A stretch of 64,000 nt of DNA, taken from Microbacterium radiodurans. Its GTDB lineage: Bacteria; Actinomycetota; Actinomycetes; Actinomycetales; Microbacteriaceae. Below are positions 8,901-17,708 of this stretch, piece after piece. The stretch covers positions 248,001 through 312,000 of the forward strand of contig NZ_VYRZ01000001.1 in assembly GCF_008710705.1 (NCBI RefSeq). Reading direction: 5' to 3'. The position numbers were made by a program, and so were the translations under genes. The notes below the pieces were generated by a model. It searched no databases. It was given only the letters and a program-made list of their open reading frames with translations, and was not told the origin of the DNA. How positions within the stretch are numbered: position 1 is the stretch's first letter; each line of letters opens with the position of its first letter.

Positions 8901-8964
8901 GATGCTCGACGCGGGCTGGCTTACCAGCTCGAGATGCTCGACGCGGGCTGGCTTACCAGCTCGA
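8901..8964. repeat. 32-bp tandem duplication over the rpsN 3' end
   Basis: Two exact 32-bp units lie at 8901-8932 and 8933-8964. The second contains the rpsN stop codon and last codons; the first is a downstream duplicate pushing the terminator further away. Confidence 0.9.
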
Positions 8965-9258
8965 CTTGGTCACACCGGGCAGCTCGCCCTTGTGCGCCAT
9001 GTCGCGGAAGCGGACACGTGAGATGCCGAACTTCGAGAGGTGGCCACGGGGGCGACCGTCGATGGCGTCGCGCTTGCGCACGCGCACCGGCGACGCGTTG
9101 CGCGGCAGCTTCTGCAGACCGACGCGCGCGGCCTCGCGGGCCTCGTCGGTCGCGTTCGGGTCGACGAGGGTCTTCTTCAGCTCGGCACGCTTCTCGGCGT
9201 AGCGGGCGACGACCTCTTCGCGCTGGTTGTTGCGCGCGATCTTGCTCTTCTTAGCCAT
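8953..9258 (-). CDS. rpsN: 30S ribosomal protein S14, zinc-free type
   Basis: The protein has 101 residues, the long S14 form. It ends with [21 protein letters not shown] and lacks the CxxC pairs of the zinc-binding short form. It binds 16S rRNA in the small-subunit head. It is the last gene of rpmB-rpmG-rpsN; ATG 9258 follows the rpmG stop by 4 nt. In mycobacteria such cysteine-free paralogues are Zur-repressed spares, but no AT-rich Zur site is visible upstream of rpmB here, so it could equally be the housekeeping copy. Confidence 0.95.
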
Positions 9259-9262
9259 GAGA

Positions 9263-9433
9263 TCAGCGCTCCTCTCGGAATTCGACGTGCTTGCGGACCA
9301 CCGGGTCGTACTTCTTCAGCACGATGCGGTCGGGGTTGTTGCGACGGTTCTTGCGCGTCACGTAGGTGTACCCCGTGCCTGCGGTCGAACGCAGCTTGAT
9401 GATCGGACGGACGTCCTGAGCCTTCTTCGCCAT
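9263..9433 (-). CDS. rpmG: 50S ribosomal protein L33, cysteine-free
   Basis: The 56-residue protein starts [19 protein letters not shown] and contains [14 protein letters not shown], as in L33. The four zinc-ligand cysteines of the other L33 type are absent. It lies in the large subunit near the E site. Its ATG shares one base with the rpmB stop (TAATG), indicating translational coupling. The adjacent S14 is also zinc-free, so the cluster makes zinc-independent ribosomal proteins. Confidence 0.95.
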
Positions 9434-9669
9434 TAGAGCTTCACACCCTTCGCGATGAGGTCCTTCACGACCGACTCGATGCCGCGGGCGTCGATGACCT
9501 TGATGCCCTTAGCCGAGACGTTCAGCGTGATCTTGCGACCAAGCGAAGGAACGTAGTAGGTCTTCTTCTGCACGTTCGGGTCGAAGCGGCGCTTCGTCCG
9601 GCGGTGCGAGTGCGAGATGTTGTGACCGAAGCCGGGAACTGCTCCGGTCACCTGGCACACTGCTGCCAT
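9433..9669 (-). CDS. rpmB: 50S ribosomal protein L28
   Basis: The 78-residue protein begins [29 protein letters not shown], the L28 signature (first part quoted across the conserved N terminus), followed by [16 protein letters not shown] single Cys remains at position 5, so the zinc-site cysteine pattern is incomplete. It is the first gene of the ribosomal cluster, with an AGGAG site before ATG 9669. It lies 139 nt downstream of the DNA glycosylase gene on the same strand. No terminator is obvious between them, so read-through from the zinc operon is possible. Confidence 0.95.
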
Positions 9670-9808
9670 AGTGATTCTCCTTAGTACCGTGACACCGGAC
9701 GGTGCCACCCAAGATCCCTTGTCTGCACCCGCGCTCCATCGGGCCGTTTCCGGCCGGAAGATGAAGAGTGGGTACGTACTGCGTGCTGGAGTGCGCGCAG
9801 ACAAACAC

Positions 9809-10522
9809 TCACTCTAGCACGGCGGCACCGCGCCCCCAGCGGAACGCCGACACCGTCGGGTCGCCCGGCACCCAGAAGCGCCACGGGAACGCCGCCGTCC
9901 CCGCGACCCCGGCGACACCCACGCGCGGGCCGGTCGCGACGTCCGCGAGGGGCTCGTCGCGCAGCAGCAGCCGCGCGCGTACGCCGGCCCGCTCCGAACC
10001 CGACACCGCGTCGATGCCGTCGTGCACCGGATGCCGCAGCCCCACCGCCTCGCCGAGCCTGCCCGGTCCCCGCGCGAGGTCGCGGTCCACCCGGGCGGCC
10101 GGGCGGCGGAGCCGCGCGGCATCCACGCCCTCGACGATCTCGGCCGCGCGCAGCAGCACACCGCCCGCGACGCCGGCCGGGCCGCAGACGACATTCACGC
10201 ACGAGTGGATGCCGTGACTCAGGTACACGTAGAGGTGACCCGGCTCGCCCCACATCGTCGCGTTGCGCGCCGTCGGCCCCATCCGCGCGTGCGAGCCGGG
10301 ATCGGGGCGGTCGCCTGTGTCGCGTCCGTGGTAGGCCTCGACCTCGGTCAGCCGCGCCACGACCACCTCCGACCCGACCGACTCCGACCCGACCACCGCG
10401 TCGACCTCGACCACGAGCAGCCCGCCGAGCAGGCGCGGCGCCACCTCCACCGGCAGCGCCGCCAGCTCGGCGCGCTGCGCGTGGTGGAAGCCGGCCGGGG
10501 CGGCGGCGGATGCCCCGCTCAC
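9809..10522 (-). CDS. DNA-3-methyladenine glycosylase (AAG/MPG type)
   Basis: The 237-residue protein matches the AAG family: [14 protein letters not shown] carries the catalytic Glu, followed by [29 protein letters not shown] and a C-terminal PRVGVAG region. It excises alkylated purines, the first step of base excision repair. Its GTG at 10522 overlaps the stop of the upstream gene (GTGA), which decides the start over GTG 10543. It is the last gene of a chain of overlapping genes beginning with zur or znuA, an odd place for a repair enzyme. A functional link with zinc uptake is not suggested by the enzyme itself. Confidence 0.9.
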
Positions 10523-11934
10523 GGCCGGGGTGCGCTCTGACACCACGAGATGTCGAAGCCGCCGAGCGCCGAGACCTCCTCGCCGGTGCCGAGGTCGACG
10601 ATGTGCGTCTGCAGCCGCTGCGGCAGGGGCAGGAGGTACGCGTCGTACGGGTTCGAGACGGCATCGGGTGCGATGAGGAACGCGGCGTATCGGCTGCTCG
10701 GCGACACGCACGCGTGCTGCAGCAGTGCGCCGTCCGGCACGTCGAAAACGGTCCGGACGGCGCCGGACTCGTCGACCGCCGCGACGGAGGTCGACAGCAC
10801 CGTGAATCCGTCGACCTGCGACAGCACGCGGAGTGTCTCGTCGGCGTTCCCCGGCAGCGCGACGATCGACTGCGTCTCGCCCGCCGCGGGGTCGGTGACC
10901 GGCAGCGACCGCTCCTCGGCCGTCGCGAGGTCGATCGCGACGAGACCGTCGGCGCGCTGCACGATCGCCTCGGTCGACCCGCGCGCGATCCCGTCGATCG
11001 TGATCGCGTTGCCGAGCGCGACCGGTGCGCCGCCGCCGGTCGACACCAGGGTCAGCGCTCCGTCGAAGGTGAGCAGCAGCACCGCGTCGCTGCCGGGGAC
11101 GAACCGCCAGTCGTCGACCCGGGAATCGCCGCCGGCGATCTGCAGCTGGTCGGGCTCGTCGGCGGCGCGCGCCTCGGCGAGGGATGCCGTGTACAGCTCG
11201 CTCTCGCGGGTCCCGCCGCTGCCGATGTCGGCATCGGTGAAGGTGTAGCCGATGAGGTCGCCGCGGTCCGCGGACTGCAGATTCGTCACCGTCCCCGGTC
11301 CGGGCAGCGGGAGCTCCCGCGCGTTCTGCCCGTCACGATCGGTGACGGTGAGCGTCGACTCGCCCGCGTCGTCGGAGGTCACGATCGCGAGGTGGGTCGC
11401 GGTGGCGCGGAAGTCCTCGATCCGAGCGCGGGCGAACACGGGCTCCGCGTTCTCGCCGTCGAGGGTCGTGCGGAAGATCGTGTCCTCGTCGCCGCCGCGC
11501 TGCAGCAGGAACGTCTCGAGTGCGGGCGTCGTGAACCGCTCCTCGACCTCGCCGGTCGGCCCGCCGCCGAGCCCGCGCAGGCCGGAGATTCGCACCGTGT
11601 AGTCGGTGGCGTCGCGCAGCGGCAGGGCGAAGCGGATGCCGATCTGCCGCCCGGACGTGTCGACGGTGAAGTCGGCTGCGGGCTCGACCTCCACCTGGGC
11701 GGGATCGACCTCCTCGAGCGACTGCGTCGTCGTGACGATCAGGCGCGACCCCGCCGACTCGACGGCCGCCTGGGGATCGACGGTGACGTCCGTCGCCCGG
11801 GGTCCCTGCACGGTCGTGACGACCGCGCTCCCCGCTCCGACGAGGACGAGCACGCCGACGACGGCCGTCATGGCGACGACGAATCCCCGCGAGCGACGGC
11901 GCCGCGCGCGCGTGCGGCGGCCGTCAGTACTCAT
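10519..11934 (-). CDS. membrane-anchored beta-propeller-like protein
   Basis: The family was not recognised with certainty. The 471-residue protein has an Arg-rich start (RRTRARRRRSRG), one membrane helix (about residues 20-43) and a beta-rich exterior. There, short repeats such as LLQRGGDEDTIFRTTLDG and TLVSTGGGAPVALG recur, consistent with a WD40/TolB-like propeller. Two cysteines occur late (HACVS, SWCQS). It starts inside the end of the TIGR03943-type gene (11-nt overlap) and is followed by a GTGA overlap with the glycosylase, so it is translated as part of the zinc operon. A periplasm-facing binding or scaffold role is an inference. Confidence 0.7.
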   Translation of the reverse strand: MSTDGRRTRARRRRSRGFVVAMTAVVGVLVLVGAGSAVVTTVQGPRATDVTVDPQAAVESAGSRLIVTTTQSLEEVDPAQVEVEPAADFTVDTSGRQIGIRFALPLRDATDYTVRISGLRGLGGGPTGEVEERFTTPALETFLLQRGGDEDTIFRTTLDGENAEPVFARARIEDFRATATHLAIVTSDDAGESTLTVTDRDGQNARELPLPGPGTVTNLQSADRGDLIGYTFTDADIGSGGTRESELYTASLAEARAADEPDQLQIAGGDSRVDDWRFVPGSDAVLLLTFDGALTLVSTGGGAPVALGNAITIDGIARGSTEAIVQRADGLVAIDLATAEERSLPVTDPAAGETQSIVALPGNADETLRVLSQVDGFTVLSTSVAAVDESGAVRTVFDVPDGALLQHACVSPSSRYAAFLIAPDAVSNPYDAYLLPLPQRLQTHIVDLGTGEEVSALGGFDISWCQSAPRP

Positions 11935-12787
11935 AGGGGTCCTCGGGCTCGTCGATCGTCTGCACACCGGTCGCCTCGACGACCAGGCGACCGTCGCGGT
12001 CGCGGATGACACCGGTGACCGTCACCCAGTCGCCCGTCTGCGGCGATGCCTGCGTCGCTCCGCCGATCGGGATGCTCGCCGGCTGCGCGTCGATCACACA
12101 GTGAGTGATGATGAGGCGGGTCAGGCCGAAGCCGCCGTCGGCTCCGGGCGTGACGAAGCCGGTGAGGCTGATCTCGTCGCCCTCGAACGCCTCGGGGTTC
12201 GTGGCCGTGGCGAAGACGCTCGCCCATTCGCCGACGCCGAACGCGGCCGTGTCGCCCGTCGTGGCCAGCGCGATCGAGTCGGCCCCCTGGAACAGCGGCG
12301 GCGCACCGGTGTCGCGCGACATCGCGAGCTCGGCCGAGAGCGTTGCGGGCGGGGTGACGAGCACGACGGCGACGAGACCCGTCGCGATGACACCGCCGGT
12401 GCCGGCCGCCGCCGCGCCGAGCACGAGCCGCAGGCGGTCGGGGGCGGGCCGCCGCAGTGGCGACACCGGCGCGGCGCGGCGGGCGCGCCGCATCCCGCCG
12501 TCGACGTGACCGTGCGCGACGCCGTGGTCGTGCGCGTCGCCGAGATCGTGGTCGTGGGCGTCGCCGTGGTCGTGGGCGTGGTCGGCCTCCGCGCCGAGGG
12601 GGAGCGCGAAGCTCACCACGGCGCCGATCAGCGCGAGCACCGCCATCCCGATCGCGAACCACGCGGATTCGGGGTTGATGTAGAGCCCGATGCGGCCGGT
12701 CGCGGCGAGCACGACGGTCACGGCCGCGAGGGCTGCGGCCAGACCCACTCCGAAGAGCCGGGTGAGGAGCGCGGACGACCTAGACAA
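11924..12787 (-). CDS. TIGR03943/DUF1980-type permease partner, His-rich
   Basis: The 287-residue protein resembles YcgQ/TIGR03943 partners of YcgR-type permeases. Two N-terminal membrane helices (about 9-30 and 42-64) are followed by an unusual His/Asp stretch, DHAHDHGDAHDHDLG (about 68-95). Another helix and an extracytoplasmic domain follow, containing EFEGDEISLTGFV-like and LIITHCVIDAQPAS segments typical of the family. The His-rich loop should bind divalent metal. The TTG start at 12787 overlaps the permease stop by 8 nt. Transport of zinc is inferred from the Zur/Znu neighbourhood, not known for the family as a whole. Confidence 0.8.
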   Translation of the reverse strand: MSRSSALLTRLFGVGLAAALAAVTVVLAATGRIGLYINPESAWFAIGMAVLALIGAVVSFALPLGAEADHAHDHGDAHDHDLGDAHDHGVAHGHVDGGMRRARRAAPVSPLRRPAPDRLRLVLGAAAAGTGGVIATGLVAVVLVTPPATLSAELAMSRDTGAPPLFQGADSIALATTGDTAAFGVGEWASVFATATNPEAFEGDEISLTGFVTPGADGGFGLTRLIITHCVIDAQPASIPIGGATQASPQTGDWVTVTGVIRDRDGRLVVEATGVQTIDEPEDPYEY

Positions 12788-13790
12788 GGAGGTTCACCAC
12801 CCCTCCGACGGCGATCGCGAACAGGACGACGATCACGACGAGCGCGACGAGCACGCGGGTGCGGAAGGTCGTGCGCATGAGCGCGAGCATCTTGACGTCC
12901 ACGAGCGGCCCCACCAGCAGGAATGCGACGAGCGAACCGGGCGTGAAGGTCGAGGCGAACGACAGGGCGAAGAACGCGTCGACGTTCGAGCAGATCGCGA
13001 CGATCATCGCGAGGGCGATCATCGCAAGGATCGACAGGGCGGGGTTCGAGCCGATCGCCAGGAGGGCGTCGCGCGGGACGATCACCTGCACCGCGCCCGC
13101 GATGGCCGACCCGATCACGAGCGCCGGCATGACCGCCCGCAGCTCCACGACGTACTGCACGAGGCTCCGGCGTCCCTTTCCGCCCGGATCCTCGGCGGCG
13201 ATCTCGCACGCCGCGAGGAAGCGCTCGGTGAGCAGTCCGTCGGGGTCGGGATGCCGCGAGTACAGCCAGCCGATCAGGTTCGCCACGACGTAGCCGCCGA
13301 CCAGGCGGGCGATGAGGATGCCGTCGTCGAACCCGAACGCCTGGTGCGTCGTGATGATGACGATGGGGTTCACGATGGGCGCGGCGATGAGGAAGGTCAT
13401 CGTCTCGGGCACCGAGAAGCCGCGGATCATGAGGCCCCGGGCGAACGGCAGGTTGCCGCACTCGCAGACCGGCACGAGCATGCCGAGCAGCGACAGCACC
13501 GCACGGCGGGCCCAGGCTCGGCGCGGCATCCACCGCTCGATCGCACCCGGCGGGACCCACACCTGCACGATGATCGACAGCAGCACGCCCAGCATGACGA
13601 AGGGCAGCGACTCGATGAGGACGCTCAGCCCGAGGGTCAGGCCGTCCTGCGCGCGCGTCGAGAGCGCGGCACCGGGCGTGAGGAAGGCGACGACGACGAG
13701 GATCACGACCGCGGCCGCGCCGATGCCGAGCGCAGCCGTCGTGCGCGTGGCGGGCGTGGGCGCGAGCCGTGCGGTCTTAGGCGCCGTCAC
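12780..13790 (-). CDS. YcgR/DUF318-type permease
   Basis: The 336-residue integral membrane protein of COG0701 has about eight helices. Both family motifs are present: PVCECGNLP near residue 108 and AICSNVDAFFALSF near residue 268, with membrane-embedded cysteines that could carry metal or thiols. It is paired, as in many Gram-positive bacteria, with the TIGR03943 protein downstream. It overlaps the zur 3' end by 14 nt (GTG 13790), so the two are co-translated. Substrate is unproven; its position between zur and a His-rich partner argues for zinc or zinc-complex movement. Confidence 0.85.
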   Translation of the reverse strand: MTAPKTARLAPTPATRTTAALGIGAAAVVILVVVAFLTPGAALSTRAQDGLTLGLSVLIESLPFVMLGVLLSIIVQVWVPPGAIERWMPRRAWARRAVLSLLGMLVPVCECGNLPFARGLMIRGFSVPETMTFLIAAPIVNPIVIITTHQAFGFDDGILIARLVGGYVVANLIGWLYSRHPDPDGLLTERFLAACEIAAEDPGGKGRRSLVQYVVELRAVMPALVIGSAIAGAVQVIVPRDALLAIGSNPALSILAMIALAMIVAICSNVDAFFALSFASTFTPGSLVAFLLVGPLVDVKMLALMRTTFRTRVLVALVVIVVLFAIAVGGVVNLLV

Positions 13791-14193
13791 GCTCGACCGA
13801 GGGTCGCGCGGCCGAGCAGGCGGCGCAGAGCCCGAAGATGTCGACGACGTGCTCGGCGGCGGTGAACCCGTTGGCCGCGGCGGTGCGGCGGGCCCATTCC
13901 TCGACGTCGGTCGCCTGGATCTCGACGGTCAGCCCGCACGAGCGGCAGATGAGGTGGTGGTGGTGTCCGTCGCTCGAGCAGGCCCGGTAGATGGCCTCGC
14001 CCTCGGGACTCTGCAGCTGGTCGGCTTCGCCGGCAGCGGCCAGGGTCGCGAGCGCGCGGTAGACGGTCGCCAGACCGATGCCGGTGTTGTCGTCGCGGAG
14101 GGCGGCATGCAGGTCCTGAGCCGACACGAAACCGCGGGCATCCGACAATGCCGTCCGCACGCGCTCGCGCTGCCAGGTGTTCCGCTGGGCCAT
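13777..14193 (-). CDS. zur: Fur-family regulator, Zur type
   Basis: The 138-residue protein has the Fur winged helix (residues 1-80, GIGLATVYRALATL recognition helix). It also has the metal sites GHHHHLICRSCG and a C-terminal CAAC, which make the two CxxC structural zinc pairs. Gene context (znuB 46 nt upstream, permease downstream, znuCA in the same operon) points to Zur, the zinc-sensing repressor. It would repress its own operon through the site at 16950-16964, giving a negative feedback loop. Fur or peroxide-sensing PerR are less likely in this context. Confidence 0.88.
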   Translation of the reverse strand: MAQRNTWQRERVRTALSDARGFVSAQDLHAALRDDNTGIGLATVYRALATLAAAGEADQLQSPEGEAIYRACSSDGHHHHLICRSCGLTVEIQATDVEEWARRTAAANGFTAAEHVVDIFGLCAACSAARPSVERDGA

Positions 14194-14239
14194 GGCGGGG
14201 AGTCTACTCGGCGCTGCTCTGCGGCGGCTGGGTGCCCGG

Positions 14240-15115
14240 CTACGCGCCCGGCAGCGGCTGGGTGCGCTGGACGCGGCCGCGGCGCCCGCCGACGATGCGG
14301 CAGACCAGGTAGATGCCGAACGAGATCGTCGTGATGTACGGGCTCACCGGAAGCGTCCCCGCGACGGCGAGCAGGATGCCGCCCACCGCCGACACGACGC
14401 CGAAGACCGCCGCCAGCACGGGCACCGTCACCGGCCCGGTGGCGACCCGCATGGCAGCCGCGGCCGGGGTGACCAGCAGCGCCATCACGAGCAGCGCGCC
14501 GATGATGTGCACCGCCACGGCGACGATGAGCCCGAGCAGCAGCATGAAGCCGAGCGAGACGCCGACCGTGGGCACGCCCCGGGCGGCCGCCGACTGCGGG
14601 TCGAGGGAATCGAAGCGGAGCGGGCGCCAGATGAGCAGCAGGGCGAGGAGCACGAAGGCCGCGATGCCGATGAGCCAGCCGAGCTGCCCCGACTGCACCG
14701 AGACGATCTGACCGGTCAGCAGGCTGAACCGGTTGGCGCTGCGTCCGTCGTAGAGCGAGAGGAACAGGATGCCGAGACCGAGGCCGAACGGCATGAGCAC
14801 GCCGATGATCGAGTTGCGGTCGCGCGCGCGGGAGCCGAGCCAGCCGATGAGGGCGGCGGCGACGAGCGAGCCCACGATCGACCCCGACACGACGTCGGCC
14901 CCGATGAGGAGGGCTGCGGCGGCCCCGGCGAACGAGAGTTCGCTGATGCCGTGGACGGCGAAGGCCATGTCGCGCTGCAGGACGAAGACGCCGATGAGGC
15001 CGCCGACGAGGCCCAGGACGGCTCCGGCCCACACGGAGTTCTGCACGAGCGCGAGGATGTCGCCGTACACCGGGAGACCGCCGAACATGGCGTCCCAGAC
15101 GTCGGCCCAGGTCAT
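14240..15115 (-). CDS. znuB: zinc ABC transporter permease
   Basis: The 291-residue ABC-3 family permease has about eight or nine membrane helices. It has the family segments LQRDMAFAVHGISELSFAGAA and GALLVMALLVTPAAAA (each shown in part of the conserved stretches). It forms the membrane channel for Zn2+ (possibly Mn2+) import with ZnuC and ZnuA. Its ATG overlaps the znuC stop (ATGA), indicating coupled translation. It ends 46 nt before zur. Confidence 0.9.
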   Translation of the reverse strand: MTWADVWDAMFGGLPVYGDILALVQNSVWAGAVLGLVGGLIGVFVLQRDMAFAVHGISELSFAGAAAALLIGADVVSGSIVGSLVAAALIGWLGSRARDRNSIIGVLMPFGLGLGILFLSLYDGRSANRFSLLTGQIVSVQSGQLGWLIGIAAFVLLALLLIWRPLRFDSLDPQSAAARGVPTVGVSLGFMLLLGLIVAVAVHIIGALLVMALLVTPAAAAMRVATGPVTVPVLAAVFGVVSAVGGILLAVAGTLPVSPYITTISFGIYLVCRIVGGRRGRVQRTQPLPGA

Positions 15116-15915
15116 AGGTGGTCTCCGTGGTCGTGGTGGTGGTGCGAGGCGTCGGCGTCGGGGGCGCCGACGACGACGAGGCGGTCGCCGGCGCGCAGCA
15201 CAAAGACCGGCGCCCCGTAGAGGTCGGTGAGCACCGGCGAGGTGAGCACGTCCTTCGGGGTGCCGAGGGTGAACCGGCCGTTCGCGATGTAGAGGATGCG
15301 GTCGACCTTGCCGAGGACGGGATTGATGTCGTGGGTGACGAGGAGCACACCCGCGCCGGTGCGCCGGTGCTCGTCGATCAGCCGCACGACCGCCTGCTGG
15401 TTCGCCAGGTCGAGACTCGTGAGCGGCTCGTCGCACAGCAGGAGGCGCGGGTCGTCGGCGAGCGCCTGACCCACCCGCAGGCGCTGCTGCTCGCCGCCGG
15501 AGAGAACCCCGACCGGTCGATCGGCGAAGGCGCTCGCGCCGGCGGCCGCAAGCAGCCGGTCGACGCGGTCGCGGTCGCGGCGGCGGGGCAGCGGGATGCC
15601 GAAACGGTGCCCGTCCACACCGAGCGAGACGAGGTCGCGGCCGCGCAGCGCCGTGTCGGGCGGGAGCGGGCGGGCCTGCGGCAGATACCCGATCGCGCGA
15701 TTGCCGCGGCGCCGCACCGGCTGGCCGAGGGCGGTGATGGACCCCTCGCTCAGCGGCTCGAGGCCGAGGATCGCGCGCAGCAGCGTGGTCTTGCCCGAAC
15801 CGCTCGGGCCGAGGACGGCGATGAGCTCGCCCGGCTCGACGCTGAGGTCCAGTCCGCTCCACAGTTCGCGGCCGGATCGCCGCAGGGCGGCGCCGCGGAT
15901 CTCGAGCAGACTCAC
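15112..15915 (-). CDS. znuC: zinc ABC transporter ATP-binding protein, His-tailed
   Basis: The 267-residue ATPase has Walker A GPSGSGKTT (about residue 35), signature LSGGEQQRLR, Walker B LLLCDEP and the switch His in LLVTHD. It energises ZnuB. The last residues form SHHHHDHGDHL, an uncommon metal-binding tail for an ATPase. The start is GTG 15915, because GTGA overlaps the znuA stop; upstream in-frame codons would run into znuA. Together with the His-rich loops of ZnuA and the TIGR03943 protein, this is the third His/Asp tract in one operon. Confidence 0.9.
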   Translation of the reverse strand: MSLLEIRGAALRRSGRELWSGLDLSVEPGELIAVLGPSGSGKTTLLRAILGLEPLSEGSITALGQPVRRRGNRAIGYLPQARPLPPDTALRGRDLVSLGVDGHRFGIPLPRRRDRDRVDRLLAAAGASAFADRPVGVLSGGEQQRLRVGQALADDPRLLLCDEPLTSLDLANQQAVVRLIDEHRRTGAGVLLVTHDINPVLGKVDRILYIANGRFTLGTPKDVLTSPVLTDLYGAPVFVLRAGDRLVVVGAPDADASHHHHDHGDHL

Positions 15916-16928
15916 CGGGTCAGCGTACCGGCCAGCTCGTCGACGTTCTGCTGCATCCATTCGACGTAGTCGACGCCGTCGGGCATGAGCTCGGTGAACT
16001 CGAGGACCGGGATCTGCAGCGAGTCGGCGAGGTTCACGACCTCGGTCGTCTCCGCTCCGCCGGTCTGCGCATTGACGATGACGGCGCGGACGTCGCCGGC
16101 GCGGAGGATCTGCTGCGCCTCGAGCAGGGTCGCCGGGGGCACGTCCTGACCCTCCTCGACGGCTTCGCTGAAGGCGTCGGGCGTCGCGTTCTCGAGACCG
16201 GCCGCGGCGGTGAGGTACAGCGGCACGGGCTCGGTCACGAAGATGCCGTCGCCGGCGTGGTCCTGGGCGATGCCCTCCAGCGAGGTCTCGAGCCCGTCGA
16301 TCCGCTCGATCAGCGCGGCGGCGTTCGTCTCGAAGGTCTCGGCGTTCGCGGGGTCGATCTCGCCGAGCTGATGCGCGATGTCCTCGACCAGGTGCGCGAC
16401 CGTGTGCGGGTCGTACCAGACGTGCTCGTTGAAGCCCTCGATGTGGTCGTGCCCGGCGTGGTCGTGGTCGTCGCCCTCGGCGTGGTCGTCGCCCTCGGCG
16501 TGATCCTCATCGCCGTGGTCATCGCCGTGGTCGTCGTGGCCCTCGGCGCCGGGGAAGTCGTGGGAGAACTCGACCGCGGTGAGAACCGGGGCCTCGCTGC
16601 CGCTGGAGTCGACGAGTCCGTCGAGGAACGAGTCGTAGCCGCCGCCGTTCTCGATGATGAGGTCGGCCTGCGACACCGTGAGCTGGTCGCGCGCGGAGGC
16701 CTCGTACGAGTGGGGGTCCTGCGAGAGCGACGTGATGATCGAGGTGACCTCGACGGCGTCCCCGCCCACCTCCGCGGCGAGCGAGCCGTAGACGTTGGTC
16801 GAGGCGACGACCTGGACGGCACCGCCGCCGTCCTGTCCGTCGCCGGGTGCCGTCGTGCCGGCGCAGCCGGCGAGAGCGAGGGATGCGGTGGCCACGAGGG
16901 CGGCGGCGGGCAGGAGACGTCGGGTCAT
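15912..16928 (-). CDS. znuA: zinc-binding lipoprotein of an ABC transporter
   Basis: The 338-residue cluster A-I solute-binding protein has a signal peptide with lipobox LALAGC (Cys near 22). It contains TNVYGSLAAEVGGD, DPHSYE, a long His/Asp/Glu loop (about 130-165, rich in DDHGDDHG) and EHVWYDPHTV. The metal ligands are the conserved His residues of DPHS and the WYDPH region plus a late acidic residue. The His-rich loop is typical of zinc-specific ZnuA rather than manganese-binding proteins. It is the first gene of the operon; ATG 16928 lies about 7 nt after TATAGT, so translation is probably leaderless. Confidence 0.92.
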   Translation of the reverse strand: MTRRLLPAAALVATASLALAGCAGTTAPGDGQDGGGAVQVVASTNVYGSLAAEVGGDAVEVTSIITSLSQDPHSYEASARDQLTVSQADLIIENGGGYDSFLDGLVDSSGSEAPVLTAVEFSHDFPGAEGHDDHGDDHGDEDHAEGDDHAEGDDHDHAGHDHIEGFNEHVWYDPHTVAHLVEDIAHQLGEIDPANAETFETNAAALIERIDGLETSLEGIAQDHAGDGIFVTEPVPLYLTAAAGLENATPDAFSEAVEEGQDVPPATLLEAQQILRAGDVRAVIVNAQTGGAETTEVVNLADSLQIPVLEFTELMPDGVDYVEWMQQNVDELAGTLTR

Positions 16929-16935
16929 GGCATCG

Positions 16936-16964
16936 ACTATAGCGGCTACTGATAATCGTTCTCG
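16936..16964 (-). promoter_or_regulatory. znuA promoter with a Zur-like box
   Basis: On the minus strand TATAGT (16941-16936) is a good -10. A TGATAATCGTTCTCG-like site at 16950-16964 (written on the plus strand) covers the -35/spacer. It matches the actinobacterial Zur pattern TGANAANNATTNTCA in its first half and only partly in the second. Confidence 0.6.
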
Positions 16965-17144: not shown

Positions 17145-17708
17145 GTGTCGCCCTGGGCGCTGTTCGTCCTCGCCGTCGGCGTCTCCGCCGACGCGTTCGC
17201 CGTCGCGCTCGGAAAAGGGCTGCAGCTTCGTCGTCACGTCGTGCGCGGAGCGTTGCTCATCGCCGGCGCCTTCGGCGTCGCCCAGGCGGTGATGCCGCTC
17301 ATCGGCTGGCTGCTCGGCAGCACGTTCGCCGCGGCCATCGCGCCGTTCGATCACTGGATCGCCTTCGCGCTCCTCGCCGCGATCGGCGGCAAGATGCTGT
17401 GGGAGGCGTTCCGTCCGGGCGACGACGAGGATCCGGCATCCGGCATCTCAGCGCGGGAGATCACGCTCCTCGCCCTCGCGACGAGCATCGACGCCCTCGC
17501 GGTCGGCCTGTCGTTCGCGTTCCTCGACGTGCCGCTGTGGGTCGCCGTCGTCTCGATCGGCCTCGTCACCTTCGTGCTGTCGTTCGTCGCGGTGCTCATC
17601 GGCCACCGGGTCGGCACGCGCTGGCGCAAGCCCGCCGAGATCATCGGCGGCATCGTGCTCATCGGGATCGGCGCTCAGATCCTCGTCGAGCACCTGCTGG
17701 CCGGCTGA
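17145..17708 (+). CDS. mntP: manganese efflux pump MntP family
   Basis: The 187-residue protein has six predicted helices and the two related halves of the family, each with an Asp-containing motif: GVSADAFAVALGKG near residue 10 and ATSIDALAVGLSF near residue 105. MntP exports excess Mn2+. GAGGAGG 5-10 nt before GTG 17145 fixes the start; the frame is open upstream but without a comparable site. It is divergent from the zinc operon, and the shared gap holds two metal-regulator-like sites, so zinc and manganese balance may be coordinated. Confidence 0.9.
   Translation: MSPWALFVLAVGVSADAFAVALGKGLQLRRHVVRGALLIAGAFGVAQAVMPLIGWLLGSTFAAAIAPFDHWIAFALLAAIGGKMLWEAFRPGDDEDPASGISAREITLLALATSIDALAVGLSFAFLDVPLWVAVVSIGLVTFVLSFVAVLIGHRVGTRWRKPAEIIGGIVLIGIGAQILVEHLLAG

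Follow-up and report, generated by a model that had tools for sequence, protein, structure and literature searches.

Probable division of a Zur-type zinc-uptake locus of Microbacterium radiodurans into separate units, and a conserved leader RNA beside it

The closest described relatives of the locus reported here are the znuACB systems of Corynebacterium and Streptomyces, which combine genes for an ATP-binding cassette (ABC) zinc importer with a Fur-type regulator, Zur, and have the same type of 15-bp inverted repeat as the box at their znuA promoter, and in which, as far as the accessible parts of three reports go, the Zur regulon follows a comparable pattern (PMC2823685, PMC5472717, PMC6103462). 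We analyzed a 64,000-nucleotide (nt) stretch of Microbacterium radiodurans DNA (contig NZ_VYRZ01000001.1, positions 248,001 to 312,000; hereafter the window), part of a 3.18-Mb genome in six contigs, in which znuA, znuC, znuB and zur are followed by genes for an ArsP_1-type permease, a TIGR03943 protein, a membrane-anchored propeller and a DNA glycosylase. The best explanation, which we consider quite probable, is a Zur-regulated zinc-uptake locus built of at least two units, with the permease, TIGR03943 and propeller genes forming a separable trio. The zinc part is ordinary: comparison with related sequences gives good support to a Zur-controlled uptake locus of the Microbacterium type. The less ordinary parts are the three-gene membrane set within the locus and a structured leader RNA just after it. 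A preliminary description, made from the window, had proposed one eight-gene zinc operon with an unusual ATPase tail, and our data suggest two corrections: within this group a histidine tail on ZnuC is normal, and zur and the trio probably lie outside the control of the Zur-bound promoter.

The znu genes, the Zur box and the ZnuC tail

The eight genes lie together on the minus strand, as the preliminary description had them. Their positions in the window after start correction, with the associated promoter elements, are as follows.

15912-16928, minus strand: znuA, zinc substrate-binding lipoprotein with a His/Asp loop (Pfam PF01297, 192.8 bits)
15112-15915, minus strand: znuC, ABC ATPase with a C-terminal His tract (PF00005)
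14240-15115, minus strand: znuB, ABC-3 permease (PF00950, 152 bits)
13777-14193, minus strand: zur, Fur-family zinc regulator with two CxxC pairs (PF01475)
12780-13790, minus strand: ArsP_1-type permease, first gene of the trio (PF03773, 188.6 bits)
11924-12787, minus strand: TIGR03943/DUF1980 partner with a His-rich stretch (TIGR03943, 112 bits)
10519-11934, minus strand: propeller, third gene of the trio, membrane-anchored, immunoglobulin (Ig)-like plus beta-propeller (AlphaFold2 model, linkage)
9809-10546, minus strand, start GTG at 10543 or 10546: DNA-3-methyladenine glycosylase (NF002003, 202.9 bits, cut-off 182)
16950-16964, minus strand: Zur box of znuA, CGAGAACGATTATCA, one mismatch to TGANAAYNRTTNTCA
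16936-16941, minus strand: -10-like element of znuA, TATAGT, 7 nt before the ATG
14201-14206, minus strand: -10-like element of zur, TAGACT, 7 nt before the ATG, candidate internal promoter

Adjacent genes encode the PF01297, PF00950 and PF00005 proteins that characterize a ZnuABC-type importer. For comparison we used 57 stretches from the same genus (fetched stretches carry L numbers below), 40 of 87 matching genomes from the family, picked by us at one per genus, and 20 of 38 matches from other families of the same order. A Zur box with at most one mismatch is present within 250 nt of znuA in 49/49 genus and 36/39 family regions. In the window and in 48 of the 49 genus regions it is located 33-36 nt upstream of znuA (in L072, where the start is mis-set, it lies at -27), and it carries no mismatch in 45 of 50 regions. 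All 50 regions, the window included, also have TAnnnT 4-10 nt upstream of the znuA start, such that the box and an overlapping promoter are found 5' of znuA in every one of them, and the znuA mRNA is probably leaderless. On this evidence the core of the preliminary description, zinc uptake by znu genes under Zur, stands. In the mechanism we propose, zinc-loaded Zur would repress znuACB by occupying the box, which covers the -35 region of znuA; a drop in zinc would release Zur and allow znuACB expression, probably from the leaderless mRNA, and ZnuA would then capture zinc via its His/Asp loop and binding site for import by ZnuBC.

Only five palindromic Zur sites (at most one mismatch) occur in the whole 3.18-Mb genome, with none for a reversed control pattern, and four of them adjoin zinc genes: znuA, aztA/aztB, a CobW_C protein gene and a CDF exporter gene. 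The azt genes make up a second zinc importer (L106 7645-11398 = G000:C1:1027644-1031397), in which an aztA-like gene is divergent from aztB, a gene for a secreted protein and an aztC-like gene, and the box lies between aztA and aztB. AztA and AztB score above their curated cut-offs and AztC slightly below, and the protein at the AztD position has no PDB match at E <=0.01, making its identity as AztD putative. The CobW_C/COG0523-type gene (L107 4673-5688) has a perfect-match box at its start, and the gene for the CDF-family, ZitB-like exporter (L108 3459-4444) has a one-mismatch box 57 nt upstream. The exporter scores below the ZitB equivalog cut-off (219.9 vs 408 bits); by analogy with Streptomyces, where Zur activates zitB according to the accessible part of PMC5472717, it may be activated by Zur. 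The fifth site (L106 5193-5207, one mismatch), located before genes for an XRE-type regulator and an oxidoreductase-methyltransferase fusion, is doubtful and may be a chance match. Divergent from znuA in the window is an mntP-like manganese-efflux gene (17145-17708, plus strand). Of the 54 genus stretches that have an orthologue of zur, just three (L046, L047 and L079) show this neighbor.

His/Asp tracts had been noted in ZnuA, at the ZnuC C-terminus and in the TIGR03943-type protein, and all three are there, that of ZnuA in a loop. The ZnuC tail was described as unusual and its absence from relatives was proposed as a check; when that check was run, the tail was found to be nearly universal. 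ZnuC of the window has six His among its last 30 residues. All 50 same-genus orthologues (loci matching at >60% identity) have at least four, and at least three are present in 38/40 orthologues from other genera of the family (the exceptions being L237, with two, and L259, with the tract further from the C-terminus) and in 19/20 from other families of the order. Among seven further ABC ATPases encoded in this genome, only one has three His in this position, so the ZnuC tract is above chance. E. coli K-12 ZnuC likewise has a His-rich stretch near its C-terminus (His at five of the final 30 positions), but there residues continue past the stretch, whereas in Microbacterium it forms the very end of the protein.

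A tail retained across orthologues and present in E. coli ZnuC could be a specific zinc sensor that halts the transporter at high cytosolic zinc (trans-inhibition), and other importers do have C-terminal regulatory parts. The sequence and length of the tail vary freely among orthologues, however, unlike those of a defined regulatory site; the tail contains no folded domain, AztA, the ATPase of the second importer, lacks it, and the accessible parts of the literature searched yielded no function for a ZnuC tail. A sensor is therefore rather unlikely, and the free variation fits loose metal binding better. We suggest that the tail is a loose metal-binding extension that changes fast; where the importer opens into the cytosol, it would most likely accept or buffer zinc with low affinity.

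A probable zur promoter and the permease trio

Overlaps at nearly every gene junction were part of the case for a single operon. Counting from znuA, the genes overlap by 4 and 4 nt, leave a gap of 46 nt at the third junction, znuB-zur, and overlap again by 14, 8, 11 and 25-28 nt, such that the claim holds for six of the seven junctions and fails at znuB-zur. Within that gap, the pattern TA[GA][AGC][ACG]T lies 6-7 nt upstream of zur in 52/52 genus regions; two of the 54 genus loci were dropped from this count, L061 because it is cut off and L063 because its start is one codon off, and the latter still shows TAGGCT. The pattern was picked after inspection of the data, and its chance level in mononucleotide shuffles was a mean of 0.32 with a maximum of 2. 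It was absent from the control regions upstream of znuB (0/38), TIGR03943 (0/20), the permease (0/4) and znuC (0/1), and it was retained in all nine genomes in which the znuB-zur gap exceeds 300 nt (354-2,964 nt). A Zur box was found upstream of zur in 0/53 genus regions and in 1/40 family regions (L248). The conserved element and the lack of a box argue against a single eight-gene operon, and an internal promoter that divides it, which the preliminary description had named as the result that would count against it, is probably present.

If all eight genes were nonetheless co-transcribed from the Zur-controlled znuA promoter, the whole set would respond to zinc starvation. Consistent with such an operon, the genes share a strand and six junctions overlap, the overlaps recur in relatives (zur-permease in 40/53 and permease-TIGR03943 in 43/53, with starts estimated from BLAST), and the znuB-zur gap has no terminator-like site. 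Against it stand the conserved -10 element of zur, the znuB-zur spacing, which reaches 2,964 nt among the nine genomes, two stretches (L049 and L068) that hold zur and the trio with no znu genes within the stretch fetched, and the location of the trio away from zur in 26/30 loci (the best 30 of 54 genomes). One operon for all eight genes is thus doubtful, and we judge it unlikely. In the division into units that we favor, zur and the genes downstream would be driven mainly by their own box-free promoter directly before zur, with some read-through from znuB possible. Because that promoter has no Zur box, the regulator and the trio would be zinc-independent and made at any zinc level, and zinc starvation need not induce a permease of “export type” that adjoins a zinc importer.

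The permease is present in 54/120 family genomes. In the best 30 permease loci (from those 54 genomes), the propeller gene lies downstream on the same strand in 30/30 and the TIGR03943 gene is present in 28/30, while zur is adjacent in only 4/30; of these four loci, one belongs to this genome and one to another of the same genus. Near znuB, the trio occurs in 3 of the 40 other genera (L224, L257 and L232, the last in opposite orientation). Linkage to the permease rather than to zur indicates that the trio is its own unit, placed behind zur in Microbacterium, and by this gene-order evidence it is an independently inherited membrane module.

The TIGR03943 protein exceeds the curated cut-off of its family (112 vs 88.8 bits), and the propeller matches no Pfam or NCBIfam family. 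An AlphaFold2 model of the propeller (mean predicted local distance difference test score 87.1, predicted template modeling (TM) score 0.81) consists of a membrane helix, an Ig-like domain and a beta-propeller, and Foldseek returned only generic propellers among the matches listed, TolB first (TM about 0.37). The closest named relatives of its gene are in Microbacterium species, and with at most five candidates scored per genome the family was found in 2/296 genomes of the phylum, both of the genus. A gene 64% identical is carried on a 5.3-kb contig titled Stenotrophomonas maltophilia (L116), which is probably contaminating Microbacterium DNA. Our analysis ties a propeller without a family to ArsP_1/TIGR03943 permeases, and the trio probably exports or exchanges a metal or metal-like ion. 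That the propeller is instead an AztD-type zinc chaperone supplying ZnuA is very unlikely and was rejected: like AztD, a propeller zinc chaperone according to the accessible part of PMC6689063, it has a predicted beta-propeller fold, is extracellular as judged by its N-terminal membrane helix and lies near zinc genes, but no His is invariant among 20 or 36 aligned relatives (H181 is merely near-invariant in the set of 36), a profile search of PDB sequences gave three weak matches, none named AztD, AztD is absent from the 50 Foldseek matches listed, and the propeller tracks the permease, not the importer, in 30/30 loci.

Several results weigh against a zinc locus of this construction. ZnuA, ZnuB and ZnuC fall below the NCBIfam equivalog cut-offs PRK09543/44/45 (67.9, 96.8 and 59.5 bits vs 284, 306 and 268); these are enterobacterial models, and we therefore call the importer Znu-type rather than an enterobacterial equivalog. 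No His occurs among the last 30 residues of AztA from the second importer, indicating that zinc import in itself does not require the tail. The permease scores 81.4 bits against the SO_0444 Cu/Zn efflux transporter, for which the cut-off is 300, making metal export a weak guess. The zur -10 pattern is absent from the five parsable zur upstream regions of other genera in the family, and the gap without a terminator-like site would permit one long transcript or read-through. The split into units is drawn from sequence, in which the zur element is a predicted promoter.

A leader RNA before rpmB

The run of minus-strand genes extends past 9809 into three ribosomal-protein genes (9669-8953), the first of which is preceded by the structured leader.

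9811-9816, minus strand: -10-like element TAGAGT of the rpmB unit, predicted promoter, overlapping the glycosylase stop codon
about 9670-9804 (core 9685-9726), minus strand: conserved rpmB leader RNA (covariation, family-wide model search)
9433-9669, minus strand: rpmB (L28), the only L28 gene found in the genome, one Cys only
9263-9433, minus strand: rpmG (L33), no Cys
8953-9258, minus strand: rpsN (S14), 101-aa form, no Cys

The leader has the consensus GCMGACAAGNGANCUUGGG-stem-loop-CGGUA. Its alignment (A3) comprises 41 distinct rows and leaves out L050 (core identical to the window), L089, the long-hairpin L232, L242, L252, L256 and L229 (which has another ending), as well as L241 and L258, which the text pattern missed; the model did pick up the genome of L241 (G089). 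Over the 41 sequences, pairing in the six-pair stem reaches 98.8%, with changes on both sides at all six pairs. Cells changed on both sides number 66 vs 19.1 in shuffles (0/500 reach 66), the covariation score is 0.497 vs 0.190, and shifting the stem partner lowers pairing to at most 54.4%; the count of six pairs with both-side changes is itself matched by 33/500 shuffles. The CAAG/CUUG hairpin is invariant in the 41 rows, and so offers no proof of pairing, and the excluded L232 has CAUG/CAUG.

The leader model finds exactly one site in each of 55/60 family genomes, always on the rpmB strand and 20-60 nt upstream of rpmB. Sixteen of the 55 supplied training rows, leaving 39/44 as the independent part. 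The misses are G068, G071, G073, G076 and G095, of which G076 and G095 have divergent forms (L232 and L229). Among 149 genomes of the order, searched with stricter filters, there were 10 matches, all in the genus or family. Rfam gave no match for the window or six other stretches, and for the leader itself only a chance microRNA row at a lax threshold. A long-range helix between UUGUCUGC and GCAGACAA, which would pair perfectly in most sequences of the genus but with mismatches in L049, L053, L060 and L063, can be guessed at, as can pairing between the ribosome-binding site and the CUCC loop of the hairpin.

rpmB is within reach in 35/40 family stretches, in 33 of those without an intervening trio, and L28 is single-copy in 60/60 family genomes. 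The idea that L28, L33 and S14 are zinc-free spare copies controlled by Zur was considered and, for L28, rejected, since this genome, like the 60 of the family, has one copy and there is no Zur box before rpmB. From its position, the leader would act on L28, L33 or S14. A more novel reading is an unreported, family-specific leader class in which L28 (or L33/S14) would repress its own operon by binding the CAAG hairpin and the covarying stem that directly precede the ribosome-binding site, and which would lie beside znuACB-zur because the zinc-free ribosomal genes were once Zur targets, became the sole copy and traded Zur for RNA control. This whole reading is tentative, and we lean slightly against it.

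Comparison with described systems

As in Corynebacterium and Streptomyces, further Zur boxes accompany COG0523, a second importer and a CDF exporter. Unlike in those genera, zur has a separate, box-free promoter element, and no Zur box lies 5' of the adjoining ribosomal genes (0/35 genus and 0/35 family regions).

The leader resembles ribosomal-protein leaders (PMC7247131) in being a conserved, covarying cis structure directly 5' of a ribosomal-protein gene, the feature by which such leaders are recognized. It differs in the protein concerned and in having no Rfam match: no L28 leader is named in the accessible parts of PMC7247131 (“L28”, 0 occurrences) or PMC2864571, and none appeared by title in the literature searched. 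If this family-wide leader is a true regulator, L28 would join the ribosomal proteins with RNA feedback.

With known pairs of an ArsP_1 permease and a TIGR03943 protein, the trio shares both proteins, encoded by adjacent genes; unlike those pairs, it includes a membrane-anchored propeller as a third protein in 30/30 loci.

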